A stretch of DNA of 38,621 bases from Nitratidesulfovibrio sp. SRB-5 (GTDB lineage: Bacteria > Desulfobacterota > Desulfovibrionia > Desulfovibrionales > Desulfovibrionaceae). The stretch is taken from NCBI RefSeq assembly GCF_019931275.1, contig NZ_JAIOTY010000007.1, forward strand, positions 1-38,621, given 5' to 3'. Below, in pieces: positions 1,478 through 33,917 of this stretch (position 1 is its first letter; each line of letters opens with the position of its first letter). Position numbers and translations under genes: made by a program. Under the pieces are notes generated by a model, which made no database searches, was not told the DNA's origin, and saw nothing but the letters and a program-made list of their open reading frames with translations.

Positions 1478-2029
1478 GGAACACTCCTTGGTTGAAGGTT
1501 TGCCCACGTATACCGCGCCCACCCCTTGTCGGCCATTAGATGGTCGATATCCTGTCGTCGCTTCCGCTTGACGAAGCGGGGGCATGGGGCTAGCACGACC
1601 GATAACCATCATGATGCCGCGCGACTGGCGAGAAAGTGGAGCAACACCACGAGGGAGCGCGGCATTCGTCAGCGCCGCTCGCCTGGGCCGCATCGGACAC
1701 GATGCCGACAACCACCTTCCCCGTCCGGGGAAGCCTGTCCGGAGGCCGCCCATGTGCTTGTTCATGGCATTTCAGGCAATCCTTCCCCGACCTGGCGGCG
1801 CTGATGCCGCGAACGACCACGGTTCGGGCCGCATCTCCCTCAGCCGTGCCGCGTGGTATCTTCGTGCCGCCCGCGCCGGTCTTGCCGCGGCCATCTGGCG
1901 CATGGCGCACGCCTGTCGCGCAGCCGGGGACGCCGCCTGCGGCACCCCTGCCGTGCTTCCCTGTCTCATTCCCGCAGCCTCGCGGCCCGTTTCCCGGCCT
2001 GTTTCCGGCCCTGTTCGGGGGAGGTCCGC
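1478..2029. other. Intergenic region between divergent genes
   Basis: 552 bp between the lipoprotein gene (minus) and benE (plus). It holds a small perfect hairpin (1564-1579, 6-bp arms) and a 10-bp palindrome at 1607-1616. Open frames here have no ribosome binding site or recognisable product. I could not place a convincing promoter for either gene. Confidence 0.5.
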
Positions 2030-5140: not shown

Positions 5141-6829
5141 CTATTGCTCCACGTACAGGTACCGCTTGATCTTGTGGGTGGGCGTCTTCTCGAAGGGTTC
5201 GGTCTGCTCGATGACCTTGTGCAGCCGCGCGAAGGTGGACACCTTGGTGTTCACTTCGTTGCGCAGTTCTTCCAGCAGGGCGGCCACCTTGTCACGGGCC
5301 TTGGTGGCGGGCAGCCCGCCGAATTCCTCGTCCAGCCGCGCGTAGTCCAGATGGATGCGCGCCGCCAGCCTGCCGTCCAGCTGGAACACCAGCGATTCCA
5401 GCACGTACGGCGACTGCTGGATGATCGCTTCCACCTCTTCGGGGTAGATGTTCTCGCCGCTGGGGCCCACGATGACGTTCTTCAGCCTGCCCTTGATGTA
5501 CAGGTAGCCGTCGCGGTCGAACTTGCCCAGGTCGCCGGTGCGGAACCACCCGTCCTCGGTGAACACGGAGGCGGTGATCTCCGGCGCTTTGGCGTATTCG
5601 CGCATCACGTTGGGGCCGCGCACCAGTATTTCGCCTTCGCCGGTGGCCGGGTCGGGCGCGTCTATGCGCACTTCCACCCCGGTCAGGGGCCAGCCGGTGG
5701 CGGTCAGGCGGGTGTCTGCCGGACCGCAGCCCGCCACAAGCGGAGACGTTTCAGTCAGGCCGTAGCCGATGGCGTACGGAAAGCCCGCCTCGCGCAGAAA
5801 GCGTTCCACGTCGGGCGCGATGGCCGCGCCGCCGATGCAGAAGATGCGCAGTGCGCCGCCAAAGGTTTGCAGCAGCTTCTTGCCCGCGATCGCGTGCAGC
5901 TTGCGCCGCACGAAGGGCAGTGCGTACAGCCGCCGCTTCAGCCAGGTATCGGTGAACTTCGGCAGCACGGCGGACTTGAAGATCTTTTCGATGACCAGCG
6001 GCACCGACAGCATGGCCGTGGGCCGCACCTGGGCCAGCGCGGGCAGCAGGGCGCGCGCCGTGGGCGGCTTGTCCATGTAGTACACGTGCGCGCCGTTCAG
6101 CACCGGCAGCACCAGGCCCAGCGTGCATTCGTAGGTGTGCGACAGGGGCAGGATGGACAGCATGCGGTCGCCGGGGACCAGTTGCACGATGGTCTTCACC
6201 GTGTCCGCGTCCCACACGATGTTGCGGTGGGTCAGCACCACGCCCTTGGAATGGCCGGTGGTGCCTGAGGTGTAGATCATGGCCGCCACGTCGTCCTCGC
6301 CCGGCTCTTCTGCGGCCAGGTGGGTGAAGCGCATGGCCTTGTCGCGCAGGCGGCGGAATTCGCGCAGACCGCGTTCCTTCAGTTCGCGCAGCTTGTCGCG
6401 CGTGGCGCCCTGCTGCACGGGGTGGAAATTCTCGATCTGGATGAGCACCGGCGGGGTGTCGAACTGGCCGTCCTCCAGCTTAGGGAACAGCCGCTCGGAG
6501 ACGAGCACCACCTTGGCTTCCGAATGGCGGATGATGTGATGCACGGCATCCGCGTGGAATTCCGGAAGGATGGGCACGGCAACGGCGCCCATGGCGGTAA
6601 TGGCGAAATAGGCGATGCCCCAGTTGGGCATGCTTTCGGACAGGATGGCCACCCGGTCGCCGCGCGCCACGCCCTGTTCCGCCAGCAGTGCGGACACCGT
6701 GGTGGCGTGTTCGAGCAATTCACGAAAGGTTACCGGCGCGCCGCCGATCTGCGACAGCGCGGGCTGGTCCGCGTACAGTTCGGCGCTGCGTTCCAGCACC
6801 CGCCTGAGGGTAAGCGTCTGCAACTCCAT
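5141..6829 (-). CDS. AMP-forming acyl-CoA ligase (long-chain fatty acid type)
   Basis: A 562-aa cytoplasmic ANL-superfamily enzyme: ATP + carboxylate + CoA gives acyl-CoA via an acyl-adenylate. Visible motifs are the P-loop YTSGTTGHSKG (186-196), A5 YGLTETSP (356-363), A7 TGDLGKFDRDGYLYIKGR (431-448), and the C-terminal lysine region PTHKIKR (551-556) holding the adenylation lysine. The length is normal. The start at 6829 has AAGGAG eight bases upstream; an upstream in-frame ATG at 6868 lacks this. It is probably transcribed alone, ending at the hairpin at 4847-4893. Chain-length preference cannot be read from the sequence; FadD-like activation of medium or long acids is the family expectation. 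A FadL-type porin lies about 8 kb away but not in the same operon. Confidence 0.9.
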   Translation of the reverse strand: MELQTLTLRRVLERSAELYADQPALSQIGGAPVTFRELLEHATTVSALLAEQGVARGDRVAILSESMPNWGIAYFAITAMGAVAVPILPEFHADAVHHIIRHSEAKVVLVSERLFPKLEDGQFDTPPVLIQIENFHPVQQGATRDKLRELKERGLREFRRLRDKAMRFTHLAAEEPGEDDVAAMIYTSGTTGHSKGVVLTHRNIVWDADTVKTIVQLVPGDRMLSILPLSHTYECTLGLVLPVLNGAHVYYMDKPPTARALLPALAQVRPTAMLSVPLVIEKIFKSAVLPKFTDTWLKRRLYALPFVRRKLHAIAGKKLLQTFGGALRIFCIGGAAIAPDVERFLREAGFPYAIGYGLTETSPLVAGCGPADTRLTATGWPLTGVEVRIDAPDPATGEGEILVRGPNVMREYAKAPEITASVFTEDGWFRTGDLGKFDRDGYLYIKGRLKNVIVGPSGENIYPEEVEAIIQQSPYVLESLVFQLDGRLAARIHLDYARLDEEFGGLPATKARDKVAALLEELRNEVNTKVSTFARLHKVIEQTEPFEKTPTHKIKRYLYVEQ

Positions 6830-7269
6830 GCAAGCTCCTTCATGTGAGACTTCACGGATGTACGGCAAAGCCGGATTCGCTGCAATCCCATGCGGCGCGA
6901 CGGCGGGCGCTGAATGTGGCGTGACGCCGCAACGTCACGGGCGTTGACGGGCGGCATTGCGTTGCAGTGGCCGGGGGCAGGGCCGGGCGCGGAGGCCGGA
7001 CACGGAGATCGGGGACGCTGGCTGGACGCTGGCTGGGCGGTGACTGGACGGTGGCTGGACGGGGGGGGGGGGGGGACGCTGCCGCCGGTGGCGGGGGTGA
7101 AGCCGGCAGGAGCGGACAAGGGCGGCGCTCCGTGCCGTGGCGGATTGTACTGGTGCGGGGTGTTGCGCTTGCCCTTGCGGGTGCGCATGCTCGCACCGGT
7201 TGACCACGCAGCCCGTCGTGTCGCATACCGGAGGGACCATCCAAACCCCAACGCCGCACGAGGTTTCCC
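6830..7269. repeat. Low-complexity gap with 10-11 bp repeats and a G15 tract
   Basis: 440 bp between divergent genes. Degenerate repeats of the CTGGCTGGACG type run from about 7015 to 7060 and lead into 15 consecutive G residues at 7061-7075. Small open frames cross it on both strands but none has a ribosome binding site and a recognisable product. A 6-bp inverted repeat (7180-7185 / 7192-7197) abuts the putative promoter of the Dabb gene. Confidence 0.8.
7200..7229 (+). promoter_or_regulatory. Possible sigma-70 promoter of the Dabb gene
   Basis: TTGACC (7200-7205), an 18-bp spacer, then CATACC (7224-7229). It would start transcription about 35 nt before the ATG at 7270. The -35 match is good and the -10 match weak. 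Confidence 0.35.
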
Positions 7270-7575
7270 ATGCTCAAGCACATCGTCTGGTGGACCCTGA
7301 AGGACGAGGCCGAAGGCGCCTCCGCCGCCGAGAACGCCGCCAAGATGAAGGCCATGCTCGACCCGCTCATGGGCAAGATTCCCAGCCTGAAAGGGCTGGA
7401 GGTGAGCATCACCTTCCTCGGCACCACCACCGAGCCGGTGCAGATCATCCTGGTGTCCACCCACGACGACGCCGAAGGGCTGAAGGCCTATGCCGAACAC
7501 CCCGAGCACGTGCAATGCGTGGATTTCATCAAGAAGATCGTGGCCAGCCGCAAGGCCATCGACTTCACGGTGTAG
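7270..7575 (+). CDS. Dabb-domain (stress-responsive alpha/beta-barrel) protein
   Basis: A 101-aa protein with the Dabb pattern: an N-terminal MLKHIVWWTLKD strand, a central segment with conserved Leu/Gly positions (IPSLKGLEV, about 40-48), and a C-terminal AYAEHPEHVQCVDFIKKI (about 77-94) carrying the His-Pro-x-His sequence typical of the family. Dabb proteins form small dimeric ferredoxin-like barrels. Plants use them in stress response, while bacterial members are mostly uncharacterised and some are oxygenase- or cyclase-like. A GAGG lies about 9 nt upstream of the ATG. It is a single gene and is followed by the inverted-repeat complex at 7613-7722. Confidence 0.88.
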   Translation: MLKHIVWWTLKDEAEGASAAENAAKMKAMLDPLMGKIPSLKGLEVSITFLGTTTEPVQIILVSTHDDAEGLKAYAEHPEHVQCVDFIKKIVASRKAIDFTV

Positions 7576-7612
7576 CCGCGCTGGCCGGGGGTGCCCGGCG
7601 GTGCCTTTTTCC

Positions 7613-7641
7613 GGGGCGGAAGAGCATGGCTCTTCCGCCCC
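7613..7641. terminator. Perfect 13-bp hairpin after the Dabb gene
   Basis: Arms 7613-7625 and 7629-7641 pair perfectly around an ATG loop. No T run follows on either strand, but TTTTT lies just before it on the plus strand. It sits between two convergent genes and may block readthrough from both. Its right arm is shared with the larger inverted repeat at 7633-7722. Confidence 0.55.
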
Positions 7642-7722
7642 GTGCCGTTCAGGCGGCGTGGCGGGCATGCTGGCATTCGGTTGCGGCGGCGAGGCGGGCC
7701 GCCTGAACGGTACGGGGCGGAA
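7633..7722. repeat. 24-bp inverted repeat, one mismatch
   Basis: Arms 7633-7656 and 7699-7722 match as reverse complements at 23 of 24 positions, separated by 42 nt. The right arm ends one base before the methyltransferase stop codon on the other strand. Because 7633-7641 also pairs with 7613-7621, two mutually exclusive structures are possible. Confidence 0.85.
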
Positions 7723-8361
7723 TTACCTGGTGCCCGAGGCCACGAAGATGGAAATGCTGGCGCTGGCGCACCCGCAGGCGGATGTGGCGCAGCAGGTGCC
7801 CCCCGCGTCTTCCACGCGCACGTCGCACAGCCCCGCCTCGCCCAGCCAGCGGGCCACGTCATCGCGCCGGAACCCCGGCCAGCGGTCGTGGTGTTCCCGC
7901 AACAGAAAGGCGTTGTCGTGCAGGTCCAGGTCGGTCAGCACCACCCGCCCGCCGGGGCGGACGATGCGGGCCATTTCGCGCAGGGCCGCGCCCGGGTCTT
8001 CGGCATGGTGCAGGTACATGTTGGCGAAGGCGTGGTCCACCGCGCCGTCGGGCAGGGGCAGGGCGTTGCCCTCGCAAACCCGGCAGACCACCGGGGGCAG
8101 GCCGGGGCCGCCCGCCGCAAAGGGCTTGCGCCGCAGCACGTCCAGCATGGCCGCATTGGCGTCCAGCGCCATGACGGCCACCCCCCGCGCCACCAGCGCC
8201 TCGGTGACGAAGCCGGTGCCCGCGCCGACGTCCGCCGCCATCTGGCCGGGGGCCAGCGGCGCCCGGGCGCAGGCCGCATCGCGCACGGCCCCGGAAAAGA
8301 ACCCGGCGCGCAGGGTGTCCCAGTTGTCCGCCACGGCATCGAAATAGCCCTTGCATCCCAT
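7723..8361 (-). CDS. Class I SAM-dependent methyltransferase
   Basis: A 212-aa cytoplasmic methyltransferase of the Methyltransf_11/UbiE-like group. Motif I ADVGAGTG is at 43-50, an acidic Asp follows strand 2 (ALDANAAML, 65-73), and the motif IV/V segments ALPLPDGAVDHAFANMYLHH and VRPGGRVVLTDLDL are present. The C-terminus carries a cysteine cluster, GGTCCATSACGC, near residue 184; it might bind a metal or take part in substrate contact. The substrate is unknown. AGGAGG lies six bases before the ATG at 8361. The gene is divergent from the LysR regulator at 8581, a usual arrangement for a regulator and its target, so regulation by that protein is plausible. Confidence 0.87.
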   Translation of the reverse strand: MGCKGYFDAVADNWDTLRAGFFSGAVRDAACARAPLAPGQMAADVGAGTGFVTEALVARGVAVMALDANAAMLDVLRRKPFAAGGPGLPPVVCRVCEGNALPLPDGAVDHAFANMYLHHAEDPGAALREMARIVRPGGRVVLTDLDLHDNAFLLREHHDRWPGFRRDDVARWLGEAGLCDVRVEDAGGTCCATSACGCASASISIFVASGTR

Positions 8362-10491: not shown

Positions 10492-11907
10492 CTATTCGTT
10501 GTCCGACCGGCCTTCTTCGCGGCCCACGCCCAGCAGGGCCAGGGCAAAGTCGCCGCCGTCGAAGGGGCGCAGGTCTTCCATCTTTTCGCCAAGGCCCACG
10601 AAGGTGATGGGAATGCCGAACTGCATGGCCACCGCCACCACGATGCCGCCCTTGGCCGTGCCGTCCAGCTTGGTCAGCACGATTTCGTCCACCCCGCAGG
10701 CTTCGTTGAACAGCTTGGTCTGCGACAGGGCGTTCTGCCCGGTGGTGGCGTCGATGACCAGGATGGAGCGGTGCGGCGCGCCGGGGTGCTTGCGCTCCAG
10801 GATCCGGCGGATCTTGTGCAGTTCTTCCATCAGGTTGACCTTGGTGTGCAGGCGGCCCGCCGTGTCCACGAACACGATGTCGTAGCCGCCCGCCAGGGCC
10901 ACGTCCATGGCCTCGAAGGCCACGGCTGCCGGGTCGGACCCGGCGGTCTTGGCGTGAAAGTCCGCCCCCACGCGCTTGGCCCACACTTCCAGCTGCTCGA
11001 TGGCCGCCGCGCGGAAGGTGTCCGCCGCGGCGATGAGCACCTTCTTGCCCTGCATGCGGGCGCGGTGGGCCAGCTTGGCGATGGTGGTGGTCTTGCCCAC
11101 GCCGTTGACGCCGATCATCAGCACCACCTCGGGCGGGGTCACGGCGGCGATGCGGCGCGGCGCGCGGAAGATGTCCTGCAGTTCCTCGCGCAGCAGGTCG
11201 CGGAAGGCGGCGGGATCGTCGGTGCCGGCCTTGCGGGCGCGTTCCTTCAGGCGTCCCGTCAACTGCATGGCGGGCTCGAAGCCCACGTCCGCCATTATCA
11301 GGATTTCTTCCAGCTCTTCCCAGAACGTGTCGTCGATGCGGCCATGCGAGGCCAGCAGTGCGTCGATGCGCCCGGTGATCTGCTCGCGCGTGCGGGCAAG
11401 CCCCTCGGTCAGCTTCAGGAACAGGCGGTTGCGTTCGTCCTCCTCGTCTTCAAGGTCAAGGGCAAGCGCCAGCCGGTATTGCAGTTCGGAGCGGAAGTCG
11501 CCCACGTAGCGGTAGTCCATGGCGGCAAGCCAGCGCCGGAAGTCGGCGATGAAGGCTTCGGCCTCGGCCTCCGGGGTTTCCAGCGCGGCGAACAGGAAGC
11601 GCAGCCGTTCCCACAGCGTGTCGTCCGCCTCGTCCACGCCGGTCAGCACGTGGCCCAGCCACACCGAAAGGCGCGGCTCGGACTGGCGCAGGGCGCGGGC
11701 AAGCTCCGCCCGCCAGGGGGCGTCCTGTGCGCCGGGCGCGCCGGGGCTTGCCGGAATGTCGGGTGCGCCGGGGACTGCCGGTTCCGGCGTTGCGGCGGCC
11801 TCCTGCGGCGCGGCTGCCGATGGGGTTGCCGATGCGTTTGGCGCTGCCGTGGGCGCATCCGGCTCGCGGGGCGTCCACAATTTCTTGATGGCGCTGAAGA
11901 AACCCAT
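10492..11907 (-). CDS. ftsY: Signal recognition particle receptor FtsY
   Basis: A 471-aa SRP-GTPase that receives ribosome-SRP complexes at the inner membrane. Residues 1-10 (MGFFSAIKKL) form the short amphipathic membrane-targeting helix, followed by an Ala/Pro linker (15-62) and a helical A domain (63-170). The NG domain runs from about 171. G1 is GVNGVGKT (266-273), G3 DTAGR (348-352), G4 TKLDG (412-416) and G5 GLGE (438-441). GGAGG lies seven bases before the ATG at 11907. The helical region between linker and N domain is longer than a minimal FtsY but not extraordinary for this group. It is a single gene, divergent from the histidine kinase. Confidence 0.97.
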   Translation of the reverse strand: MGFFSAIKKLWTPREPDAPTAAPNASATPSAAAPQEAAATPEPAVPGAPDIPASPGAPGAQDAPWRAELARALRQSEPRLSVWLGHVLTGVDEADDTLWERLRFLFAALETPEAEAEAFIADFRRWLAAMDYRYVGDFRSELQYRLALALDLEDEEDERNRLFLKLTEGLARTREQITGRIDALLASHGRIDDTFWEELEEILIMADVGFEPAMQLTGRLKERARKAGTDDPAAFRDLLREELQDIFRAPRRIAAVTPPEVVLMIGVNGVGKTTTIAKLAHRARMQGKKVLIAAADTFRAAAIEQLEVWAKRVGADFHAKTAGSDPAAVAFEAMDVALAGGYDIVFVDTAGRLHTKVNLMEELHKIRRILERKHPGAPHRSILVIDATTGQNALSQTKLFNEACGVDEIVLTKLDGTAKGGIVVAVAMQFGIPITFVGLGEKMEDLRPFDGGDFALALLGVGREEGRSDNE

Positions 11908-12174
11908 ATGTCGTCCTCCAGATGCGGGGGATGTGGCGGTGAGATGCGTCGGTGCGGACCGTGGAGCCCGGGGGCCGTGTCCGTCCCGTCGGACCGGGTG
12001 CGGGGGGCTGCCGGTCACGGGGCCGCCACAACTTTGCCCAGAACCCCCGGCGAGTCAAGGCGGGCAGGGTGCGGGGCGCCCCCGGCGGAGCCCCGCACCG
12101 GCTGGCCGGGCACAAGGGGGCAGCCAGTCCCCGCCCGGAATCGCATTTCCGCCCCATCCATCGTCCTGCCGCTC

Positions 12175-12203
12175 TTTCCATCGCCTGGAGCATCGTGTAC
12201 GCT
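12175..12203 (+). promoter_or_regulatory. Possible promoter of the histidine kinase gene
   Basis: TTTCCA (12175-12180), a 17-bp spacer, TACGCT (12198-12203). This would give a leader of about 100 nt. The match is modest. The remainder of the 403-bp ftsY/kinase gap (11908-12310) shows nothing else I can support. Confidence 0.3.
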
Positions 12204-12310
12204 GCCGTAAACCGGAAGGCCGATGTGCCGCCGCCCGCCCCGCGCCCCGCATGGGGTGCCGCGCGCGGGCCGGGCCCTTCCGAGACCGGCGACGGGGACA
12301 TGACGCGCGC

Positions 12311-14626
12311 ATGAGCAACACCACCGCCAGCAAAGGAATCTCCGTCCCGGACATCATCAAGGGGCGTTCGCTGTCGCGCGACCTCACCGTGAGCCTCGTG
12401 GTGATGGTGCTGGTGGTGGTGGCGGCGCTGTTCTCGTTCGTCTACGTGCAGATTTCGCGCGACATGCTGCACGAGGTGGACCGCAAGGCCGACGAATACA
12501 TCACCCGCCTGGCCGACATCCTGTCCATTCCCATGTGGAACTTCGACGCGCGCACCATGGACCAGATCGGTTCGGTGTTCGCGCAGTACGAACTGATCAA
12601 CGAAATCCACATCGAGGACGCCCAGGGCAATACCCTGTTCCGGGTGCGCAAGGGCGCGGACGCCGACGCCACCGTGTTTCGCGAACGGGCCGTGCGCTTC
12701 GAGTCGGAAGTCATTGGCCGGGTGTCCATGGTGGTCACCCTGCAAGAGTACCGGCGCAGCCTGGAGCGGCTGCTGAAGGCCAGCGCCCTTATCATGGGCA
12801 GCGTGCTGGTGGTGCTGCTGGCTTCCACCGGGATGCTGCTGCGCGTGTTTCTGCGCCGCCCGCTGGAGGCGCTGCGATCCGGCATGGACCAGATAGCCAG
12901 GGGCGATTTTGCCTACGACATGGGGTCCATCGCCCATGCCGAACTGGCCCAGATCGCCGAGAATTTTTCGCGCATGTGCAGCCAGGTGGAGCAGCGCGAA
13001 AACGAACTGCACGCCATCAACACCAAGTTGCAGGACGAGATACAAAGCCGCCGCCAGACGGAACTGGCCCTGCGCGCCAGCGAGGAACGCTACGCCCTGG
13101 TGGTGGGCGGCACCAGCGACGGCATCTGGGACTGGGATCTCGTCACCAACACCGTCTATTTTTCGCCGCGCTGGAAATCCATCATCGGCTACGAAGACCA
13201 CGAAGTGCCCAACCGGCTGGAAGAGTGGAAGGTGCGGGTGCACCCCGACGACCTGGATGTCGTGCTGCACGCCCACGACGACTACCTTGCCCGCCGCGTG
13301 CCCGAGTTTCAGGTGGAATACCGCATGCGCCACAAGGACGACAGCTACCGCTGGATCCTGGGGCGCGGCGCGGCCCTGTGGGACGTCAACGGGGTGCCCG
13401 TGCGCATGGCCGGGGCCCATACCGACATCACCACCCGCAAGGAAGTGGAGCAGGAACTGCGCGAGGCCAAGAACAACCTCGACAACATCCTGAACGCCAT
13501 GCCCTCGATCATCGTGGGGGTTGACCAGTCCGGCAGCATCACCCTGTGGAACCGCACGGCGGAACGCGTCACCAGCCTGTCGCGCGACGCAGTGCTCGGT
13601 CGCCCCGTGGGCGAGGCCCTGCCCGACTTCGGCTTTCTGCTGGACGAAATCCGCCGGTCCATCGCCGAGGGCGGCACCATTGCGCTGGACAAGACGCCCG
13701 TGCCCGGTCCCGGGGTCACCCGCTACTTCGACATCGTCATCTACCCCGTGGTTTCGCGGGGCAGCTTTGGCGCCGTGGTGCGCCTGGACGACACCACCGG
13801 ACGCATCCGCATCGAGGAGATGATGGTGCAGACCGAAAAGATGTTGTCGGTGGGCGGGCTTGCGGCGGGCATGGCGCACGAGATCAACAACCCCCTCGGC
13901 GGCATCCTGCAAGGGGCGCAGAACATCCAGCGCAGGCTGGACCCGGACTTCGCTCCCAACGTGGTGGCGGCTGAAGAGTCGGGCTGCTCCATGGATTCCA
14001 TCCGGGGCTACCTGGACCGCCGGGGCATCCTGCGTTTTCTGGAAGGCATCCGCGAATCGGGCAACCGCGCGGCCAACATCGTGTCCAACATGCTGGAATT
14101 CAGCCGCCGCAGCGAATCGCGCTGGCAGCGGGTGTCGCTGCCCTATCTGGTGGACCGCACTCTGGAACTGGCGGCCAACGACTACGACCTGAAGAAGAAG
14201 TACGACTTCCGGCACATCGACATCGTGCGCGACTTTGCCGCAGACCTGCCCGACCTGCCCTGCATGCCCACCGAAATCGAGCAGGTGCTGCTGAACCTGT
14301 TCAAGAACGCCGCCCAGGCCATGCACCTGCGCGGCGACAGGCCCGACCCGCCGCGCATCTCGGTAAGCCTGCGCCACGAAGGCGGCATGCTGCGCATTGA
14401 TGTGGCCGACAACGGCCCCGGCATGGAAGAGGAGGTGCGGCGCAGGGTGTTCGAGCCGTTCTTCACCACCAAGAGCGTGGGCGAGGGGACGGGCCTGGGG
14501 CTTTCGGTGTCGTACTTCATCATCACCACCAACCACGGCGGCACCTTTACCGTGGAATCCGAGCCGGGCCGGGGCACCGTGTTCACCCTGCGGTTGCCGG
14601 TGGATCAGCGCCACGTGACGACGTAG
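12311..14626 (+). CDS. Membrane sensor histidine kinase with two PAS domains
   Basis: A 771-aa kinase. TM1 lies at about 26-47 and TM2 at about 157-180, with a periplasmic sensor domain of about 110 residues between them containing SIPMWNFDA (72-80). HAMP follows (181-235), then a coiled coil, PAS1 with PAC (about 253-380), PAS2 (about 388-500), a HisKA-type dimerisation domain with phospho-acceptor His523 in AAGMAHEINNPLGG, and an HATPase domain with N box LNLFKNAAQAM (661-671), G1 DNGPGM (700-705) and G2 GEGTGLGL (724-731). The helix after the His is lengthened (540-600), a known subfamily trait. No receiver domain or response-regulator gene is adjacent, so it is an orphan kinase. The start at 12311 lacks a good Shine-Dalgarno. 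It ends at a clear terminator. Confidence 0.92.
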   Translation: MSNTTASKGISVPDIIKGRSLSRDLTVSLVVMVLVVVAALFSFVYVQISRDMLHEVDRKADEYITRLADILSIPMWNFDARTMDQIGSVFAQYELINEIHIEDAQGNTLFRVRKGADADATVFRERAVRFESEVIGRVSMVVTLQEYRRSLERLLKASALIMGSVLVVLLASTGMLLRVFLRRPLEALRSGMDQIARGDFAYDMGSIAHAELAQIAENFSRMCSQVEQRENELHAINTKLQDEIQSRRQTELALRASEERYALVVGGTSDGIWDWDLVTNTVYFSPRWKSIIGYEDHEVPNRLEEWKVRVHPDDLDVVLHAHDDYLARRVPEFQVEYRMRHKDDSYRWILGRGAALWDVNGVPVRMAGAHTDITTRKEVEQELREAKNNLDNILNAMPSIIVGVDQSGSITLWNRTAERVTSLSRDAVLGRPVGEALPDFGFLLDEIRRSIAEGGTIALDKTPVPGPGVTRYFDIVIYPVVSRGSFGAVVRLDDTTGRIRIEEMMVQTEKMLSVGGLAAGMAHEINNPLGGILQGAQNIQRRLDPDFAPNVVAAEESGCSMDSIRGYLDRRGILRFLEGIRESGNRAANIVSNMLEFSRRSESRWQRVSLPYLVDRTLELAANDYDLKKKYDFRHIDIVRDFAADLPDLPCMPTEIEQVLLNLFKNAAQAMHLRGDRPDPPRISVSLRHEGGMLRIDVADNGPGMEEEVRRRVFEPFFTTKSVGEGTGLGLSVSYFIITTNHGGTFTVESEPGRGTVFTLRLPVDQRHVTT

Positions 14627-23083: not shown

Positions 23084-23509
23084 GCGGTGCTCCCGATGGG
23101 TTTGCCGCATGGTACGGGCTTTGGCGGCGAAGGTCCACAGGCGCTGCGGCGGCACGGCGTCCCGGTGACGCAGATACTGGTGTGGCATGCAACAGTGGCC
23201 GCCCGCGTGCAGGTCGCGCGGCCGCAACGGGCATGTGGCGCGCCTTGCGGTGCGCGACATGCCCGTATGGCCGACACGGGACGATTCGTGCTGGCAATTG
23301 CACATGGCGGGATACCGTGCGTGTTGTTGCGTCAGTGAGTGCTCTGCATCATCCGCATGGTGCGTGCATCGCGGGCCGGTTTCGAAATGCGCCGTGCTGC
23401 GCCGCATGAAGACGCAACCGATTGTGGTTGACCCCGAAGGAAGGATTGTCGTAGGTTCGAAACGAGTTTCGTGCATGCCTCATATTCATCAAACAATAAA
23501 GGAGCGGCA
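23084..23509. other. Divergent intergenic region with long hairpin
   Basis: 426 bp between the cobalamin operon (minus) and the mucR-like gene (plus). A strong imperfect hairpin lies at 23228-23265: 9-bp outer arms CGGGCATGT / ACATGCCCG and 5-bp inner arms. I looked for a cobalamin riboswitch on the minus strand. I found a lone GCCACTGT-like stretch but not the surrounding conserved core, so I do not call one. Confidence 0.6.
23428..23457 (+). promoter_or_regulatory. Possible promoter of the mucR-like gene
   Basis: TTGACC (23428-23433), an 18-bp spacer, TAGGTT (23452-23457). It would leave a 5' leader of about 45 nt that ends in an AT-rich stretch and AAAGGAG. Confidence 0.4.
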
Positions 23510-23902
23510 ATGACGGAGAGTTATCTGAAGGAGGCTCTGGACATCGTGAAGGCGCAGGCCAGTGTCCGGACCATGACCGAAGACGAGATCACCACCATGG
23601 TCCGGCGCCTTGCGGAAGGCATCCGGACCCTGAGCGAAGGTGGTGCGCTGCCCGAGAGCGGCGATGGCGCCGCAATGGACCCCAAGAAGGCCATCAAGGA
23701 AAAGTCCATTACCTGCTGCGAGTGCGGCAAGTCGTTCAAGATACTGACCAAGAAGCATCTGGCGACGCACGGGTTCACCCCTGAAACGTACCGCGAGAAG
23801 TGCGGCTACAAGAAGGGCACTCCGCTGGTCTGCAAGTCGTTGCAGCGTGAACGTCGCAAGAAGATGCGCGACATGAAGCTGTGGGAACGCCGCGGGGCGT
23901 AG
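23510..23902 (+). CDS. Ros/MucR-family zinc-finger regulator
   Basis: A 130-aa DNA-binding protein. Residues 1-60 are helical (oligomerisation region in MucR proteins). The Ros-type zinc finger covers about 66-100, with a Cys-x2-Cys pair (CCECGKSF, Cys70/71 and Cys73 area) and the downstream KKHLATHGFTPETYREKCG, whose His residues complete the site; HGFTPE-YR-K-G is the family signature. A basic tail (RERRKKMRDMK) follows. AAAGGAG lies five bases before the ATG at 23510. Family members act as global repressors or H-NS-like silencers of surface and virulence genes; the targets here are unknown. It is monocistronic, with a strong terminator. Confidence 0.93.
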   Translation: MTESYLKEALDIVKAQASVRTMTEDEITTMVRRLAEGIRTLSEGGALPESGDGAAMDPKKAIKEKSITCCECGKSFKILTKKHLATHGFTPETYREKCGYKKGTPLVCKSLQRERRKKMRDMKLWERRGA

Positions 23903-24087: not shown

Positions 24088-24229
24088 GCACCCATGAAGA
24101 AAGACTCTTGCAGGGAACCTGCGGGAAACCCTGTTGCTGTTTGTTGACAGTGATTCCTGATAGCGCTACGCCCGCGTTTGACGCGCCGTGAATATCAGGC
24201 GCGCATGTTCGTCATCCCTGGGAGGGGCC

Positions 24230-26041
24230 ATGTTTCGCAATCTCAGCCTGAAGTGGAAAATCCTCATCGTGGCGCTGGCCGGGCCGGTCATCGTGTCCGC
24301 CATCATGGCCTGGCAGCGCGTGGACGACATTCGTACCGGGGCTGAAGAGGCGATTCTCCAGAAAAGCCGGGCCGTGGTGCTCATGGCCGAGGCAACCCGC
24401 AACGAGATGGGCCGCAAGCTCGAAATCGGGCTGATGCGCCCGCTGGACGAACTGCCCAAGGACAAGGTGATGGACGCGGTGCCCGTGGTCACCGCCATGC
24501 GCATGGCCGCCCAGAACGCCGCGCAGGCGGGCTACGAATTCCGCGTGCCCAAGGTGCAGCCGCGCAACCCCGCCAACACGCCCACTCCGCTGGAACTTTC
24601 GACCATGCAGGAGATGGAGCGCGGCAACCTGGCGGAAAAGATCATCCGCACGCCTGACAAGATTTATTATTTCCGCCCCATCAAGCTGACCAAGGATTGC
24701 CTGTTCTGCCACGGCGACCAGGCCGGAACCCCCGACGTGGTGGGGGGCACCAAGGAAGGCTGGAAGGCGGGCGAGACCCATGGCGCCTTCGTGGTCATCA
24801 GTTCGCTGGAAAAGGCGCACGAGCAGGTCACGCAGGCGCGCATTGCCGTTGCCGGGTGGACCCTGCTGGTGCTGGCGCTGTTGTTCGCGGTGATCTGGGT
24901 GATCCTGAACCGGGGCATCATCGGGCCGCTGCTGCGCATCCGCCAGTTTGCCGGGCAGGTGGCCGGGGGCGCGCTGGACGCCCGCGCCGAGGGCGACTAC
25001 GCCGCCGAACTGGGCGAAGTGAAGGGCGCCATAGAAACCATGGTGGGCAACCTGAAGCAGAAGATGCAGGAAGCCGACCAGCGCCGCGCCGACGCCGACG
25101 CCCACGCCTCCCGCGCGGAAGCGGCCCTGGCCGAGGCCCGCGAGCAGGAAGCCCGGGTCAACGACCTGTTGCAGCGCATGACCTCGGTGGCCGGAGAGGC
25201 TTCCACCATCGCCCAGCAGGTGTCGCTGGCGGCAGAGGCCCTGTCCGCCCAGGTGGAACAGGTTTCCGCCGGGGCGGAGCAGCAGTCCGCCCGCGCAGGC
25301 GAGACGGCCACGGCCATGGAGGAAATGAACGCCACCGTGCTCGAGGTGGCGCGCAGTTCCGGCAGCTCCGCCCAGAGCGCCGACGAGGCCAAATCCAAGG
25401 CCCAGGAGGGCGAACGGGTGGTCAGCGGCGCGGTGGAGGCCATCAGCCAGGTGCACGAGCAGGCCCAGGCCCTGCAAGGCGAAATGACCACCCTCGGCAA
25501 GCAGGCCGAGGACATTGGCCGGATCATGGACGTGATTTCGGACATCGCCGACCAGACCAACCTGCTGGCCCTGAACGCCGCCATCGAGGCGGCCCGCGCC
25601 GGTGACGCCGGGCGCGGCTTTGCCGTGGTGGCCGACGAGGTGCGCAAGCTGGCCGAAAAGACCATGAACGCCACCAAGGAAGTGGGCCAGGCCATCCAGT
25701 CCATTCAGGCCGGGGCACGCAACAACATCAAGGGCATGGAGACGGCGGCCGCCGCCGTGACCGAGGCCACGCGCATGGCCCGTGAATCGGGGCAGGCGTT
25801 GCAGAGCATCGTGTCCCTTTCGGAGGAAAACTCCGATCAGGTACGCTCCATCGCCACCGCCGCCGAGCAGCAGTCCGCCACCAGCGAGGAGATCAACCGC
25901 GCGGTGGAGGACATCAGCCGCATCGCCTCGGAAACGGCAGAGGGCATGAACCAGGCCGCCGGGGCCGTGCTGAAGCTGGCCGGGCTGGCCAAGGCCCTGG
26001 AGAGGCAGATCGATCAGTTGACCCACGGCTCGTCCAACTGA
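24230..26041 (+). CDS. Heme-c-binding methyl-accepting chemotaxis protein
   Basis: A 603-aa membrane chemoreceptor. TM1 lies at about 11-28 and TM2 at about 207-227. The periplasmic region (29-206) resembles the DUF3365/Tll0287-like heme domain and carries a c-type heme motif CLFCH (157-161), so a covalently bound heme probably senses O2, redox state or a small gas ligand. HAMP (about 228-282), a coiled coil, and the MCP signalling domain follow, with the hairpin tip [38 protein letters not shown] (about 438-475, given in part). No CheR/CheB-tethering pentapeptide at the C-terminus. Reminiscent of DcrA of D. vulgaris but a different, shorter protein. The ATG at 24230 follows GGAGGGG; a GTG at 24188 is less likely. 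Confidence 0.93.
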
Positions 26042-26069: not shown

Positions 26070-26102
26070 CGGCCCGTGCCCTTTCGGGGGTGCGGGCCGT
26101 TT
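26070..26102 (+). terminator. Probable terminator of the chemoreceptor gene
   Basis: CGGCCCG (26070-26076) pairs with CGGGCCG (26093-26099), with further partial pairing inside and TTT after it, 29 nt past the stop. Confidence 0.6.
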
Positions 26103-26247
26103 GCATGGGGCATGCGGGGGTGCCGCCGCAGGGAGGATTTCCGCTGGCGGCGACGGGTGCGGAACGCGGCGCAAAACGGCGGAAAACCACCGCCCGGAGT
26201 GCATAAACCCGTGGCGGGGCCGGGCGAAACCGTGTAGGGGAGGAGCC

Positions 26248-26736
26248 ATGTCGCACGTGAAGACCATCCGCGCCATCCGCCGCTTCTGCCTGGACTGTCA
26301 GGGCGGTGTCGCGCGCGAGGTGCGGCTGTGCCCGGACAGGGGCTGCGGCCTGTACGCGTGGCGGCTGGCGGGCATTGTGGCGGGCGGGTCCAATGGCGGC
26401 GGCAGGCACGACCACGCAGGGGACGGCGATGCCGACACGGACCCCGTGGCCGGTGCCTCCACCGGTTCGTCTGTCGGCAACCCGCTGCCGGGCGCGTTGC
26501 CGCTCATCGCCCAGACCCTGCCCGACGAACGCCCCGTGCGGGCAATCCGCCGTTACTGCATCGCCTGCTGCGGCGGCGAACGGGCAGAGGTGCGCACCTG
26601 CGACGCCCGCGACCGTTGCGCCCTGTGGTCCTACCGCTTCGGCGTGCTTCCGGAAACCTACCGCAAGGTCAAGGCCCGCCTGACGGGCCCCCGCACCCTG
26701 GTGCTGCCGGGCCTGCCCACCGGCACCAGCGGGTAG
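26248..26736 (+). CDS. Small protein with duplicated four-cysteine motif
   Basis: A 162-aa soluble protein made of two copies of one module joined by a Gly/Asp/His-rich linker (about 46-90). Copy 1: RAIRRFCLDCQGG...LCPDRGCGLYAWRL (8-40; Cys14, 17, 28, 33). Copy 2: RAIRRYCIACCGG...TCDARDRCALWSYRFG (98-132; Cys104, 107, 118, 124). Each looks like a small zinc-ribbon-like site. Single copies of this IR-x-x-C-x2-C module are common in small phage and bacterial proteins of unknown role, in my recollection. GGGGAGGAG precedes the ATG at 26248. It is a single gene with its own terminator. Confidence 0.85.
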   Translation: MSHVKTIRAIRRFCLDCQGGVAREVRLCPDRGCGLYAWRLAGIVAGGSNGGGRHDHAGDGDADTDPVAGASTGSSVGNPLPGALPLIAQTLPDERPVRAIRRYCIACCGGERAEVRTCDARDRCALWSYRFGVLPETYRKVKARLTGPRTLVLPGLPTGTSG

Positions 26737-26873: not shown

Positions 26874-27716
26874 TCAGGCCACGGGCATGCCCCGGCGCAG
26901 CCGGGCGCGGATGTCGGAAAGCTGGTCCTCCATGGCCGCAACGCGGGCCAGCAGGCGTGCTTCCTCGGTGGTGCGGTGCAGCACCGAACGCACGGCCCCG
27001 TGCTCGAACACCAGTCGCCGGTCGGCGGACAGGGCCAGCACAGGGTCGTGCGTGGCGATGACCACGATCTTGTCGCTGCGCAGCAACAGGTCCAGCGCGC
27101 GCCGTTTGTCCACCCCGGCGTTTTCGATCTCGTCGATGAGCAGCACCGGCGACCAGCTGAGCAGGGCCGCGTCGGCGATCATCAGCGCGCGCGACTGCCC
27201 GCCCGAAAGCTGGGTGAGCTGGGCGTCATCGGCAAACGGCTCGCCCGCAAGGTCGTTGGCCGCCGCCAGCACGGCGCGGGCCGTGGCGTCCGGGTCGGGC
27301 ACGGCGCGGCTTTCGGCGTGCATGCGGATGAACGGCAGCGCGCGCATGTCCAGCACGAAGTTCATGTTCTGGGTCAGCTGGGCCACCAGCCGCCCTTGCA
27401 GGGCAAAGCGGCGGTCGGCGTCGGGTGCGGCGTCGTCCAGCAGGATGCGCCTGCCGGAGGGGGTGTCCGCGTCGGCCAGCGATTCGATGTCGTACAAGAA
27501 GCGGCTCTTGCCGGAGCCGGTAGGGCCGAGCAGGGCCGTAACCTCGCCGGGGCGGAAGGTGACGTCCGCGTGTTCGGCGCGGCCCGACTTGTCGCGCCCG
27601 GCCAGCACGGTGAGGGTGCGCAGCACCGGGGCGTCACTGGTGGCGGGAGGCGTGGCGTCTGCCGGATTGAGGGTGTTTGCCGGATTGGGGGCGTTGGCGC
27701 GGGTTGGAGACGTCAT
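26874..27716 (-). CDS. ABC-type ATPase without cognate permease
   Basis: A 280-aa soluble ABC ATPase, last gene of the three-gene set. Walker A is GPTGSGKS (64-71), Q-loop region VAQLTQNMNF (111-120), signature LSGGQ (170-174), Walker B VLLIDE (191-196), and switch His223 in ATHDP, so all catalytic elements are intact. Residues 1-30 are Pro/Asn/Ala-rich; the C-terminal 40 residues form a charged coiled coil instead of a regulatory domain. The NMNFVLDMRALPFIRMHAE segment (117-135, given here by position) replaces the usual helical subdomain contact surface. Its ATG overlaps the GTPase stop as ATGA. No transmembrane permease lies in the cluster, so it may power something other than import or pair with a permease elsewhere. 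Confidence 0.9.
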   Translation of the reverse strand: MTSPTRANAPNPANTLNPADATPPATSDAPVLRTLTVLAGRDKSGRAEHADVTFRPGEVTALLGPTGSGKSRFLYDIESLADADTPSGRRILLDDAAPDADRRFALQGRLVAQLTQNMNFVLDMRALPFIRMHAESRAVPDPDATARAVLAAANDLAGEPFADDAQLTQLSGGQSRALMIADAALLSWSPVLLIDEIENAGVDKRRALDLLLRSDKIVVIATHDPVLALSADRRLVFEHGAVRSVLHRTTEEARLLARVAAMEDQLSDIRARLRRGMPVA

Positions 27717-28492
27717 GGGCGCTCCCCGGATATGCCCGGTTCACGGGGCTCCTCCGGCCCGCCCGCCGCGTAGGCAGCCTCGCCCTCCGGGTCGCGCGCG
27801 GGCACGGCGGCGAACTCTGCCTTGCGCACGTTGCCCTTCTGGTAGCGCGCGCCGATGCGCGTCTCGCTCAGGCAGTACGAGCACACGGCGGCGGGCATGG
27901 CGAAGCGCAGCCGCATGTCCGTCACCGTGGCGATGTCCGGCGCGCGGGACAGCACCGTGGCCAGTTCCTGGCAGCCCTGCCCGGTCAGCCCGTTGATGTG
28001 GCGGATCAGCGCGCGCCCGTTCATCTGGCGGATGCGGTGGCGGTACACCTCGCGTTCCGCCTGCGAGACCAGGTCGCCCTTGGTCACCAGCACCATGTCC
28101 GCCAGGCGCAGCATGGGGCCGATCTTTTCCGGCGCGTCGATGCCCATCAGGTTGTCCACCACGCACAGGGCCAGCGCCCCGCGCAGGTGGGGCGAACAGC
28201 GGTTGCACAGCCCGGCGGTCTCGATGACGCAACACTCCGCCCCTGTCCCGGCGGCCCAGTCCCAGGCCTCTTCCAGGTTGGTGGCGAAGAAGTGGTCCGG
28301 GCACAGCCCGCCGGACAGCGCGGCCACGGCGGTGATGCCCGCCGCCGCGTAGGCGTCCGCGTCGCGGGTTTGCAGGCAGTCGAACTTGATCACCGCCGTG
28401 TGCACCCCCTGCGCCGCCAGCAGTCCGCAGGCGCGGGACAGCACCGCCGTCTTGCCGCACGAGGGCGGCCCGGCCACGGTCACGAGGCGCAT
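27713..28492 (-). CDS. HypB/UreG-like G3E-family GTPase
   Basis: A 259-aa P-loop GTPase. Walker A is GPPSCGKT (8-15). Asp38 in IKFDCLQTRDADAY and the SGGLCPDH segment (60-67) match the positions that in HypB/UreG hold the metal-linked TG-x-C-H region. ETAGLCNRCSPH (91-102) replaces HypB's EN-x-GN-x-VCP, VVDNLMGIDAPEKI (111-124) resembles its switch region, and TKGD (137-140) is the G4 variant of NKxD. Cysteines are abundant, including CNRC (96-99) and CSYC (204-207). HypB and UreG deliver nickel to hydrogenase and urease; a metal or metallocofactor role is inferred here. It overlaps the binding-protein gene by 13 nt and the ATPase gene by 4 nt. Confidence 0.88.
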   Translation of the reverse strand: MRLVTVAGPPSCGKTAVLSRACGLLAAQGVHTAVIKFDCLQTRDADAYAAAGITAVAALSGGLCPDHFFATNLEEAWDWAAGTGAECCVIETAGLCNRCSPHLRGALALCVVDNLMGIDAPEKIGPMLRLADMVLVTKGDLVSQAEREVYRHRIRQMNGRALIRHINGLTGQGCQELATVLSRAPDIATVTDMRLRFAMPAAVCSYCLSETRIGARYQKGNVRKAEFAAVPARDPEGEAAYAAGGPEEPREPGISGERP

Positions 28493-29577
28493 GCCGCGTC
28501 TCCGGTAGGCCCGTGTCCGGCGTCTGCCGCGCGCGCCTTCACCAGCAGGCGGAATTCGCCGTTCAGCCGGTCGCGCAGGGCGGTGATGTCGGTGGCGCGG
28601 ATGTAGTCCCAGCCAATCCACTTGATGGCGGCGCCCTGCGGCAGGCTTTCGGGCAGCGGCCCGGTCAGCGGCAGGAACCAGCGGGCGCTTTCTATCCGGC
28701 CGAACCCCGTGGCGAAAAAGTCGACCAGCCGGTCCAGCCGGGGCCGGGCGCTTCGTTTGGCCAGCATGTACAGGGGGCTGGCCGCCGCGCCATCCTCTGG
28801 CCACACGGTTTGCATGTGCTCCGGCTGGCGGGTGGTTTCCGCAAAGAAGTACGGCAGGATGTAGATGCCCCCGGCCTGCGGCGCGCCGCCGGACCTGGCC
28901 ATGCGCGAGGAATGCATGAGCCCGCGCGTGTTGGCCGCAAACCGGGCAATGCCCTGCATGCCGAAGTCCTTGTGGAGGGACAGCAGCACCGCGTCGGCCA
29001 TGTCGTCGCCGTCGCCGCACATGTTCACCTGCCCGGCGTAGCGCGGGTCCAGCAGGTCGGCCCAGCGGCGTGGCACGGGCAGGTCGCCCAGCCGCTTGCG
29101 GTCGATGAGGAAGATGTACGGGGTCAGCCCGTAGACCAGATAGCGCCCGTCCGGGTCCACGATGCCCGCCGCGTGGTGCATGGGGGTGACGCCCGCGGGC
29201 AGCGGCGCGGCGAACACGCCCGCATCGACGAAACGTTCAACGAAGCCGCGCCGGAAGAAGTCGCCGAAGCCGATGGAGGCGATGATCTGCGGCAGGCGGT
29301 CGGGGTCGGTTTCCCTGTGCAGCGGGTCGTACGGGTCCACCGAGGTGCAGCCCATGGGAATGTGCACGGCAAGGGAGTCGCCCGTGCCCGTGTGCGCGTC
29401 AGCCAGCGCGTCAAGGGCGTCCTTCACCGCCAGCTTCACCGGGCAGGGCGCGTAGAACAGCAGGTCTGCCGGGGACAGGGGCGGGGACAGGGGCGGGTGC
29501 AGGGGCGGGGACGGCGGCTGGCGGTCCTCGTCAGCCATGCGGCTCACTGACCGGATGAGGTCGTCGAGGTTTTTCAT
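28480..29577 (-). CDS. Periplasmic-binding-protein-fold protein without signal peptide
   Basis: A 365-aa protein resembling type II solute-binding proteins of the Fe(III)/polyamine group: LTPYIFLIDRKRL (151-163), RWADLLDPRYAGQV (171-184), a ligand-loop region GGIYILPYFFAE (236-247) and the distal SPLYMLAKRS (267-276). Odd points: residues 1-40 show no hydrophobic signal segment, being charged (MKNLDDLIRSVSRMADEDRQ) then Pro/Leu/Ser repeats; the N-lobe has distinctive PMGCTSVDPYDPL (74-86) and SIGFGDFF (101-108). It is therefore probably cytoplasmic. AGGAG precedes the ATG at 29577. First gene of the set with the GTPase and ABC ATPase; ligand unknown. Confidence 0.85.
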   Translation of the reverse strand: MKNLDDLIRSVSRMADEDRQPPSPPLHPPLSPPLSPADLLFYAPCPVKLAVKDALDALADAHTGTGDSLAVHIPMGCTSVDPYDPLHRETDPDRLPQIIASIGFGDFFRRGFVERFVDAGVFAAPLPAGVTPMHHAAGIVDPDGRYLVYGLTPYIFLIDRKRLGDLPVPRRWADLLDPRYAGQVNMCGDGDDMADAVLLSLHKDFGMQGIARFAANTRGLMHSSRMARSGGAPQAGGIYILPYFFAETTRQPEHMQTVWPEDGAAASPLYMLAKRSARPRLDRLVDFFATGFGRIESARWFLPLTGPLPESLPQGAAIKWIGWDYIRATDITALRDRLNGEFRLLVKARAADAGHGPTGDAACAS

Positions 29578-29603
29578 GCGGCGGCTCCTGTGTCGGAAGC
29601 GAC

Positions 29604-29636
29604 AAAAACGGCGCGTGCGACGCGGCGTATGGCGCC
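29604..29636 (-). terminator. Possible terminator or attenuator before the binding-protein gene
   Basis: On the minus strand GGCGC...GCGCC (29636-29610, with a loop that can fold further) is followed by GTTTTT. It lies in the 139-nt gap after the Cache-domain gene, 27-59 nt before the ATG at 29577, so it would attenuate readthrough into the three-gene set. Confidence 0.4.
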
Positions 29637-29716
29637 ATGCGACGAAAGTGTCGCGGCGCGGGGCAGGGAACCGACGACAGCAAGCGGCATGCCGCAGGCG
29701 GCATGGACACGAAGTA

Positions 29717-32750: not shown

Positions 32751-32800
32751 GCGCCACGCAACGCCTGACCGCGGGAAGGATGGCATTCCGGCGCCATGCG

Positions 32801-32829
32801 TTGCACCGCCGGGCGAGTGCGGCTACATT
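32801..32829 (+). promoter_or_regulatory. Probable promoter of the HTH/binding-protein regulator
   Basis: TTGCAC (32801-32806), a 17-bp spacer, TACATT (32824-32829). A near-palindrome GCCGCC-AA-GGTGGC (32831-32844) directly follows at the expected start site and could be an autoregulatory operator. Confidence 0.5.
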
Positions 32830-32930
32830 GGCCGCCAAGGTGGCGTGGCATCGTTAGCCCGGCATGCCGTGTCGGCCCGCGCACCGCATTCCCTCCGCTC
32901 CCCGTTCGCAAGCCCGCAGGAGGCGCATCC

Positions 32931-33917
32931 GTGAAGCAGCTGCTTTCCACCCGCGAGGTGGCCAAGGTGCTCGGCGTCAACGAAAAGATGGTCTACAGCC
33001 TGATCACCGAAAAGGGCCTGCCCGCCACCAAGGTGACCGGCAAGTGGCTGTTCCCCGCGCATCTGGTGGAACAGTGGCTGGAAAACAACACCGTGAACCA
33101 TCCGGAGCGCGCGGGCGGCACGGTGCAGCCGGGCGGCGGCGTGCTGGTGCTGGCGGGCAGCAACGACCTGCTGCTGGACAAGGCCATGGGGTTGTTCGCG
33201 GACCTGAACCCCGGCCACATCGCGGCCTTTGCCAACCTGGGCAGCATGGGCGGCCTGCGGGCCATGCGCGAGGGGCTGTGCCACATGGCGGCCAGCCACC
33301 TGATGGAGGGCGGCCCCGGCCACGCGGCGGAACCTGCCGCACCCGGCTCGGCCCCGGCGGGCGGCGGCACGGGGGGCAAGCCGGGGCGCGACTACAATTT
33401 CGGCCACGCCCGGCAAGAGCTGGATGAGGCCCCGGCGGTGGTCAACTTCTGCATCCGCGAGCAGGGCTATCTGGTGGCCCCCGGAAATCCCAACGCCGTG
33501 CGCGACGCGGGCGACATCGTGCGCAAGGGGCTGCGGGTGGTCAACAGGCCGCTGGGCACGGGCACGCGGCTGCTGTTCGACACCGAACTTTCCCGCGTGG
33601 GGGCGGACCCCCTGCGCATTCCCGGCTACGGCACAGAGGTGCGCCGCCATCTGGACGCGGGCATCGAGGTGCTGGCGGGCCGGGCCGACGCGGCCCCCGG
33701 CATCCGCGCCGTGGCCGGGCTGCTGGGCCTTGGCTTCGTGCCGGTGCAGCGCGAGCGGTTCGACCTGCTGGTGCCCCGCGCCCGCTATTTCGACCGGGGG
33801 GTGCAGCTGTTTCTGGGCATGCTGGTGGACGCGCGCTTCCGCGCCCTGGCCGACGGCTTCGAGGGGTACGACCTGTCGCGGGCCGGGCGGGTGGTGTTTC
33901 CCGGGGACGCGCCGTAA
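32931..33917 (+). CDS. One-component regulator: excisionase-type HTH plus binding-protein domain
   Basis: A 328-aa regulator. The HTH_17/excisionase-like domain (1-55) reads MKQLLSTREVAKVLGVNEKMVYSLI...GLPATKVTGKWLFPAHLVEQWL. From about residue 70 follows a PBP_like_2-type domain (PF12727) as found in molybdate-related regulators and MoeA-linked proteins, with VNFCIREQGYLVAPGNPNAV, DIVRKGLRVVNRPLGTGTR and a C-terminal LGFVPVQRERFDLLVPRARYFD. A Pro/Gly/Ala insert is at about 125-148. The ligand is probably a small oxyanion or cofactor, but the sequence does not say which. GTG start at 32931 with AGGAGG seven bases upstream. Single gene. Confidence 0.88.
   Translation: MKQLLSTREVAKVLGVNEKMVYSLITEKGLPATKVTGKWLFPAHLVEQWLENNTVNHPERAGGTVQPGGGVLVLAGSNDLLLDKAMGLFADLNPGHIAAFANLGSMGGLRAMREGLCHMAASHLMEGGPGHAAEPAAPGSAPAGGGTGGKPGRDYNFGHARQELDEAPAVVNFCIREQGYLVAPGNPNAVRDAGDIVRKGLRVVNRPLGTGTRLLFDTELSRVGADPLRIPGYGTEVRRHLDAGIEVLAGRADAAPGIRAVAGLLGLGFVPVQRERFDLLVPRARYFDRGVQLFLGMLVDARFRALADGFEGYDLSRAGRVVFPGDAP

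Follow-up and report, generated by a model that had tools for sequence, protein, structure and literature searches.

The nickel-delivery GTPases HypB and UreG, the importers that pair FbpA- or FutA-type ferric-binding proteins with ATP-binding cassette (ABC) ATPases, and NifQ and MoSto, the molybdenum donors for the iron-molybdenum cofactor (FeMo-co), are the described systems closest to a three-gene set that we analysed in Nitratidesulfovibrio sp. SRB-5. The set lies in a window that is the whole of one contig (C7, 38,621 bases) of a 4.12-Mb genome, and encodes a binding protein of the SBP_bac_6 fold, a HypB/UreG-related GTPase and an ABC ATPase. NifQ and MoSto belong to protein families other than those of the trio and resemble it in proposed role only. 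With the ferric-binding importers the set has in common the binding-protein fold and the ABC ATPase, but its binding protein lacks a signal peptide, no permease is conserved with it, and a GTPase stands in place of the permease. We read the set as a soluble, nucleotide-driven module for handling metal, used in the window's clade for nitrogenase and most likely with molybdenum, and give this reading as a whole a probability of about 0.5. Within it, a link of the metal-handling module to nitrogenase is likely, and molybdenum as the metal, for which the evidence comes entirely from neighbouring genes, is an evenly balanced choice.

The three genes overlap by 13 nt (binding protein and GTPase, 28480-28492) and by 4 nt (GTPase and ABC ATPase, 27713-27716), exactly as an earlier reading made from the sequence alone had reported. 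Their products match the Pfam families SBP_bac_6 (PF13343; E-value 6.4e-62, 209.6 bits, above the cut-off of 24.6), cobW (PF02492; 5.5e-11) and ABC_tran (PF00005; 8.6e-13), respectively. In a first sample of 59 genomes, the GTPase was found at 51-100% identity in 14, the window's own genome counted, and tblastn located all three genes in 12 of 13 loci fetched from the others, a clear binding protein being missing from L046. A scan of genome contigs gave at least 552 confirmed loci, the best 80 of which were kept. The order binding protein-GTPase-ABC ATPase is kept in 70 of these 80 loci, from many bacterial phyla, and the trio is therefore more than a chance grouping. Four of the ten exceptions are sets truncated at the edge of a contig (L101, L105, L127, L129); in three more the binding-protein gene follows that of the ABC ATPase (L083, L115, L123), and the remaining three are rearranged or lack parts (L084, L094, L109). 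Wider sampling placed the GTPase in 20 of 395 genomes across the phylum (E 1e-20 or better) and in 40 of 299 Bacillota genomes (E 1e-40 or better).

The proteins themselves point to a soluble device. A signal-peptide-like run was absent from all 79 binding-protein sequences, the window's included, in agreement with the earlier claim of a cytoplasmic protein; the mean N-terminal Kyte-Doolittle hydropathy, computed from start codons picked by script, reached at most 1.83, against 2.13-3.36 in four periplasmic controls. Residues P44-C45-P46 and H222 are kept in more than 90% of the 79 rows, and relatives such as that of L106 carry an N-terminal DUF1858 domain. The predicted structure of the GTPase (pLDDT 88.1) is closest to HypB and UreG, then to MeaB; C64 and H67 occupy the alignment positions of the Cys and His in the HypB and UreG metal sites, and C96 falls within two columns of HypB's other cysteine. 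C64, C96 and the additional cysteines C99, C204 and C207 (the last three invariant in 44 rows) do not vary in the GTPase alignment, and C110 hardly does; C99 and the C-terminal CxxC do not occur in the HypB rows compared. Conservation is strong in the ABC protein, whose Q-loop region reads AQLxQNMNFV; the Walker A, LSGGQ, Walker B and H-loop motifs, noted as intact in the window by the sequence-only reading, and the Q-loop are kept across 82 sequences. The conserved gene order, the signal-less binding protein, the metal site and extra cysteines of the GTPase and the intact ABC motifs are the grounds on which we regard the set as a module.

We also considered a related P-loop GTPase, the CobW-related selenoprotein of family NF041053, which is described with a UxxC motif (PMC9312934, PMC13188914). 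The match of our GTPase to this family was weak (21.5 bits, under the 180-bit cut-off) and confined to residues 1-62, no in-frame TGA occurred in residues 1-225 of 87 GTPases, and reading TGA as selenocysteine yielded terminal stops only; the selenoprotein reading was dropped.

The link with nitrogenase follows from genome co-occurrence, from gene adjacency in relatives and from a palindrome common to promoters within the genus. Sorting 87 loci (the window included) by binding-protein cluster and GTPase tree separated a stand-alone group A of 32 from 55 non-A loci, among which the window falls. With a PF00148 match as the nitrogenase marker, and with a search that covered the window's genome and 50 others bearing the set (taken from 50 of the 80 loci), nitrogenase was present in 23 of 23 non-A genomes versus 5 of 28 group A genomes (Fisher 1e-9, kinship ignored). 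A quick tree built from 77 GTPase rows joined the 31 rows of group A in one supported set (SH-aLRT 96), 24 of them from genomes without nitrogenase; once three very distant rows were set aside (two without nitrogenase, one unclear), the remaining 43 non-A rows, a few of which share a genome, all came from genomes with PF00148. A careful tree that added 16 Bacillota rows did not recover group A as a single clade. A further 80 genomes were compared, 68 of them from the window's order, with seven incomplete ones omitted; in the order, PF00148 was found in 21 of 21 set-positive versus 23 of 47 set-negative genomes (Fisher 1.5e-5, kinship ignored). The other 12 of the 80, from elsewhere in the phylum and all GTPase-positive, had it in 9 cases, the three without it being two of the distant rows and one group A genome. 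Among the 44 nitrogenase genomes of the order, the set was present in 8 of 9 with at least six PF00148 matches, a number that probably reflects an alternative nitrogenase, versus 13 of the other 35 (p 0.008).

Neighbouring genes, a context that the sequence-only reading had overlooked, connect the set with nitrogenase and with molybdenum. Flanks of up to 10 kb, often less, were searched by tblastn with this genome's own nif proteins, AnfDK and representatives of molybdenum genes; several of the gene names given below are based on these matches or on resemblance. Genes of the nif or anf type lay in the flanks of 10 of 55 non-A loci versus none of 32 group A loci, and none adjoined the trio in the window itself. 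Molybdenum-related genes, among which Peripla_BP_2 queries were classed by context and not by known substrate, were found at 23 of 55 non-A versus 1 of 32 group A loci, a contrast weakened by the partial circularity of these counts (and of those for AnfDK), because the queries came from these same neighbourhoods. The set follows nifE-nifN-nifB in L042 and nifV in L069, and in L088 it opens a run on one strand, set-modE-modA-modB-modC-nifH-nifD-nifK. In L106, from Pelosinus fermentans JBW45, anfD-anfK-nifB and a nifV-like gene are followed by other genes, the set, modCBA, a TaoR-type regulator and modD, and in L145 and L127 anf genes precede the set, with a Nitro_FeMo-Co-domain gene in L145. 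These molybdenum-related genes near non-A sets, together with TaoR-type regulator genes, are what supports molybdenum. A less directed Pfam tally of randomly chosen open reading frames (ORFs), 148 of 356 near and 148 of 263 far, from 80 of the 87 loci (without the window and six relatives), gave a weak signal: ABC_tran 6, methyltransferase domains 6, TonB receptor 4, Peripla_BP_2 3, Oxidored_molyb 3 and NifH 2 near the set, versus Response_reg 6, Oxidored_nitro 3, TOBE 3 and ABC_tran 3 far from it.

The palindrome TTGTCGNNNNCGACA occurs in two places in the 4.12-Mb genome, before the set and before nifH; a reversed control pattern was as frequent (2+2 hits), so it is the locations, and not the count, that are unusual. 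The nifH copy (C1:478485-478500) lies between a nifV-like gene and nifH, upstream of what we take to be a sigma54-like site. All 6 of the 6 genomes of the genus that bear the set have the palindrome ahead of it, and 7 of the 8 genomes searched have it close to nif, the exception (G002) being 75% complete; at six nifH promoters it is kept save for 1-2 spacer bases while the flanks vary. Further copies elsewhere in these genomes number four in G005, three in G001, two in G004 and a single one in each of G002, G003 and G006, while G000 and G007 have no others. A sigma54 site before the set was sought with a strict pattern and found nowhere in the window's genus, and once in L043. Upstream of the set lies a regulator gene whose true start is probably near 32931 and which has the TaoR-type architecture. 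TaoR is a characterised regulator of a tungsten-dependent aldehyde oxidoreductase, and HTH_17 and PBP_like are given as its canonical domains (PMC11980592). Within the genus, as also in Pelosinus and one Spartobacteria genome, homologues of the regulator occur near the set. The features of the window are collected in Table 1.

Table 1. Positions of the three-gene set, its upstream elements and other features in the window
Feature	Coordinates	Strand	Remarks
Binding protein (SBP_bac_6 fold)	28480..29577	-	365 aa, without signal peptide
HypB/UreG-related GTPase	27713..28492	-	259 aa; C64/H67, C96/C99, C204/C207
ABC ATPase	26874..27716	-	280 aa; permease-free surroundings
Palindrome TTGTCGCTTCCGACA	29591..29605	-	13 nt before the binding-protein start codon
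Second inverted repeat GCGACACTTTCGTCGC	29639..29654	-	conserved upstream of the set in the genus
Regulator, HTH_17 and PBP_like domains	32796..33917	+	about 3.3 kb upstream of the set
ZMP/ZTP riboswitch aptamer (RF01750)	1611..1695	+	63.6 bits; sole Rfam match; far from the set
ROS/MUCR-family regulator	23471..23902	+	
Chemotaxis receptor	24188..26041	+	Tll0287-like sensor domain
Cysteine-rich ORF	26101..26736	+	convergent with the ABC gene; no Pfam match at 1e-4; motif present twice, IRAIRRFCLDCQGG... and IRAIRRYCIACCGG...

Several observations weigh against the reading we prefer. Nitrogenase does not require the set, as 23 genomes of the order have the former without the latter, and the relatives entered into the Fisher tests are not independent. 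Among 16 Bacillota GTPases placed in the tree, eight non-A and eight group A, 3 of the 8 non-A sets (G472, G690, G505) and 1 of the 8 group A sets (G676) came from nitrogenase genomes (p 0.09 for non-A); of the 299 sampled Bacillota genomes, 59 have PF00148 at 1e-40. The other five non-A sets (G517, G636, G788, G749, G559) come from genomes without PF00148, three of them on long or weakly placed branches. The link of the set with nitrogenase is thus strong in the order and the first sample, yet, because of these five sets, not absolute. Outside the genus, the palindrome stood before the set in none of 13 genomes, five of them set-bearing. Of 50 genomes that bear the set, 34 have MoeA and 16 do not, and on this count dependence on the molybdenum cofactor was rejected. 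Finally, neither MoeA nor PF00148 is present in 11 genomes of group A (two of them small and perhaps incomplete), so the sets of this group must have another use, and group A and the five nitrogenase-free Bacillota genomes together mean that the module is not confined to nitrogenase.

A role as a replacement for NifQ was also considered, and the expected anticorrelation was not found. Whether or not they carry the set, none of the order's 44 nitrogenase genomes has NifQ above its cut-off, the single match (in G430) falling under it; six set-bearing genomes outside the order, five non-A and one group A, do have NifQ above the cut-off. The two distributions are neither complementary nor mutually exclusive, so the set does not simply take the place of NifQ.

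Under the reading of a nitrogenase-linked metal module, the binding-protein-fold component would bind some cytoplasmic metal species, the likeliest being molybdenum that enters through Mod- or FecCD-type importers, and the GTPase would receive the metal on its Cys/His site. The ABC ATPase may act on the complex of these two proteins and not on a permease, and GTP hydrolysis and the ATPase would together release the metal to cofactor assembly, much as NifQ or MoSto would, or hold it back.

The main rival to molybdenum is iron. The set could be an iron or Fe-S metallochaperone for complex clusters, a ferric-binding fold relocated to the cytoplasm, with nitrogenase as its target in the window's clade and hybrid-cluster protein or others in group A. 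The predicted structure of the binding protein (pLDDT 88.7) is in fact closest to the ferric-binding proteins FbpA, FutA and SfuA (10-16% identity), which counts against molybdenum, and the invariant cysteines of the GTPase would suit iron as well. Genes for hybrid-cluster proteins lie beside group A sets in L096, L101, L113 and G439 (C20:34394-36001), and iron would cover both groups in a single account. As a partner by profile, hybrid-cluster protein was rejected: it is present in 44 of 53 genomes of both groups, so its distribution says little. In structure comparison the same fold is also known to bind pyridoxal phosphate, phosphonates, sugar phosphates and polyamines and hence does not name the ligand, and iron leaves unexplained the Mod genes, ModE, ModD and TaoR-type regulators beside non-A sets. 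We consider iron somewhat unlikely.

Group A sets have neighbours of their own. A zinc-ribbon-like protein of about 80 aa is encoded directly downstream of the set in L136 (4589-4831), and similar ORFs follow group A sets in L102, L103, L108, L111 and L133, from several phyla; it is likely a fourth member of group A. In four Fermentibacterota loci (L103, L119, L129, L136), a UPF0014-type permease and an ABC ATPase lie downstream of group A sets. One genome, G260, carries both kinds of set (L055 and L066), and its L055 is identical to L117 of Trichlorobacter thiogenes. The nitrogenase-free Bacillota loci have either Peripla_BP_2-like and FecCD-like genes or a methyltransferase-like gene next to the set, as judged by Pfam for L214 and L216 only. 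L216 holds a deeper-branching version of the set and adjoins a molybdopterin oxidoreductase. L214 contains two different versions of the set (5439-7851 and 11688-14418) on either side of one Peripla_BP_2/FecCD importer with a methyltransferase, one version being of a third type with the order GTPase-ABC-binding protein.

Such arrangements bear on a second alternative, that the set is the inner half of an importer whose ABC ATPase drives a FecCD-type permease while the binding protein and GTPase receive a chelate at the membrane. Sets beside Peripla_BP_2/FecCD importers in Bacillota and other loci, and the pair flanking a single importer in L214, speak for it. FecCD- or ModB-type importers adjoin the set in some relatives only, however; no permease gene adjoins it in the window, as the sequence-only reading had seen, or in many stand-alone loci, and none of the 79 binding proteins appears to be exported. 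Moreover, an extra ATPase gene of the usual importer kind accompanies the permeases in L088, L106, L117 and L214 and would belong to the neighbouring importer, which in L117 and L214 argues against this alternative. We hold it to be quite improbable.

Less probable again is that the set is a sensor, reporting the metal state of the cytoplasm to nif or anf regulation and not carrying metal at all: the palindrome common to the set and nifH and the linkage with regulators and PF00148-rich genomes fit this, but Pfam found no DNA-binding or signalling domain in any of the three proteins, and two NTPases would point to work, not sensing. Nickel delivery as in HypB and UreG can be dismissed as very improbable, because beyond the common fold and metal-site residues and a weak HypA match of the zinc-ribbon-like protein of group A (E 0.0034, 17.8 bits, cut-off 28.9), the GTPase scores far under both NCBIfam cut-offs (HypB, TIGR00073, 41.5 of 121.2 bits; UreG, TIGR00101, 22.5 of 204.2 bits), the genome's best PF02492 match is a different gene, and no nickel-enzyme gene was recognised among the neighbours inspected, for which no screen with nickel families was made. 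What stands of the soluble metal device first proposed for this locus is therefore the soluble set of binding protein, GTPase and ATPase with its HypB/UreG-like metal site; the nickel lead has fallen away.

No paper that we recognised as treating the trio was found in our searches of the open-access literature (preprints excluded), consistent with the earlier remark that no described system of this composition was known to its author. It is the composition that we rate as new, each part having a known fold, and the trio probably represents a metal-handling device for nitrogenase that has so far gone undescribed. A more specific version, which we put forward tentatively and think rather doubtful in its entirety, is a new cytoplasmic metal-allocation machine in which the binding-protein fold, a thiol-rich HypB-type GTPase and a soluble ABC ATPase form one complex, one branch feeding molybdenum to nitrogenase cofactor assembly in mostly NifQ-less diazotrophs and related branches serving other metal sites in non-fixing anaerobes.

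We know of no established route by which molybdenum gets to FeMo-co in anaerobic diazotrophs without NifQ, and a three-gene module that is conserved and, in several phyla, linked to nif, anf and molybdenum genes is a candidate for that route. If this is true, an ABC ATPase and a binding-protein fold would here be employed away from any membrane.

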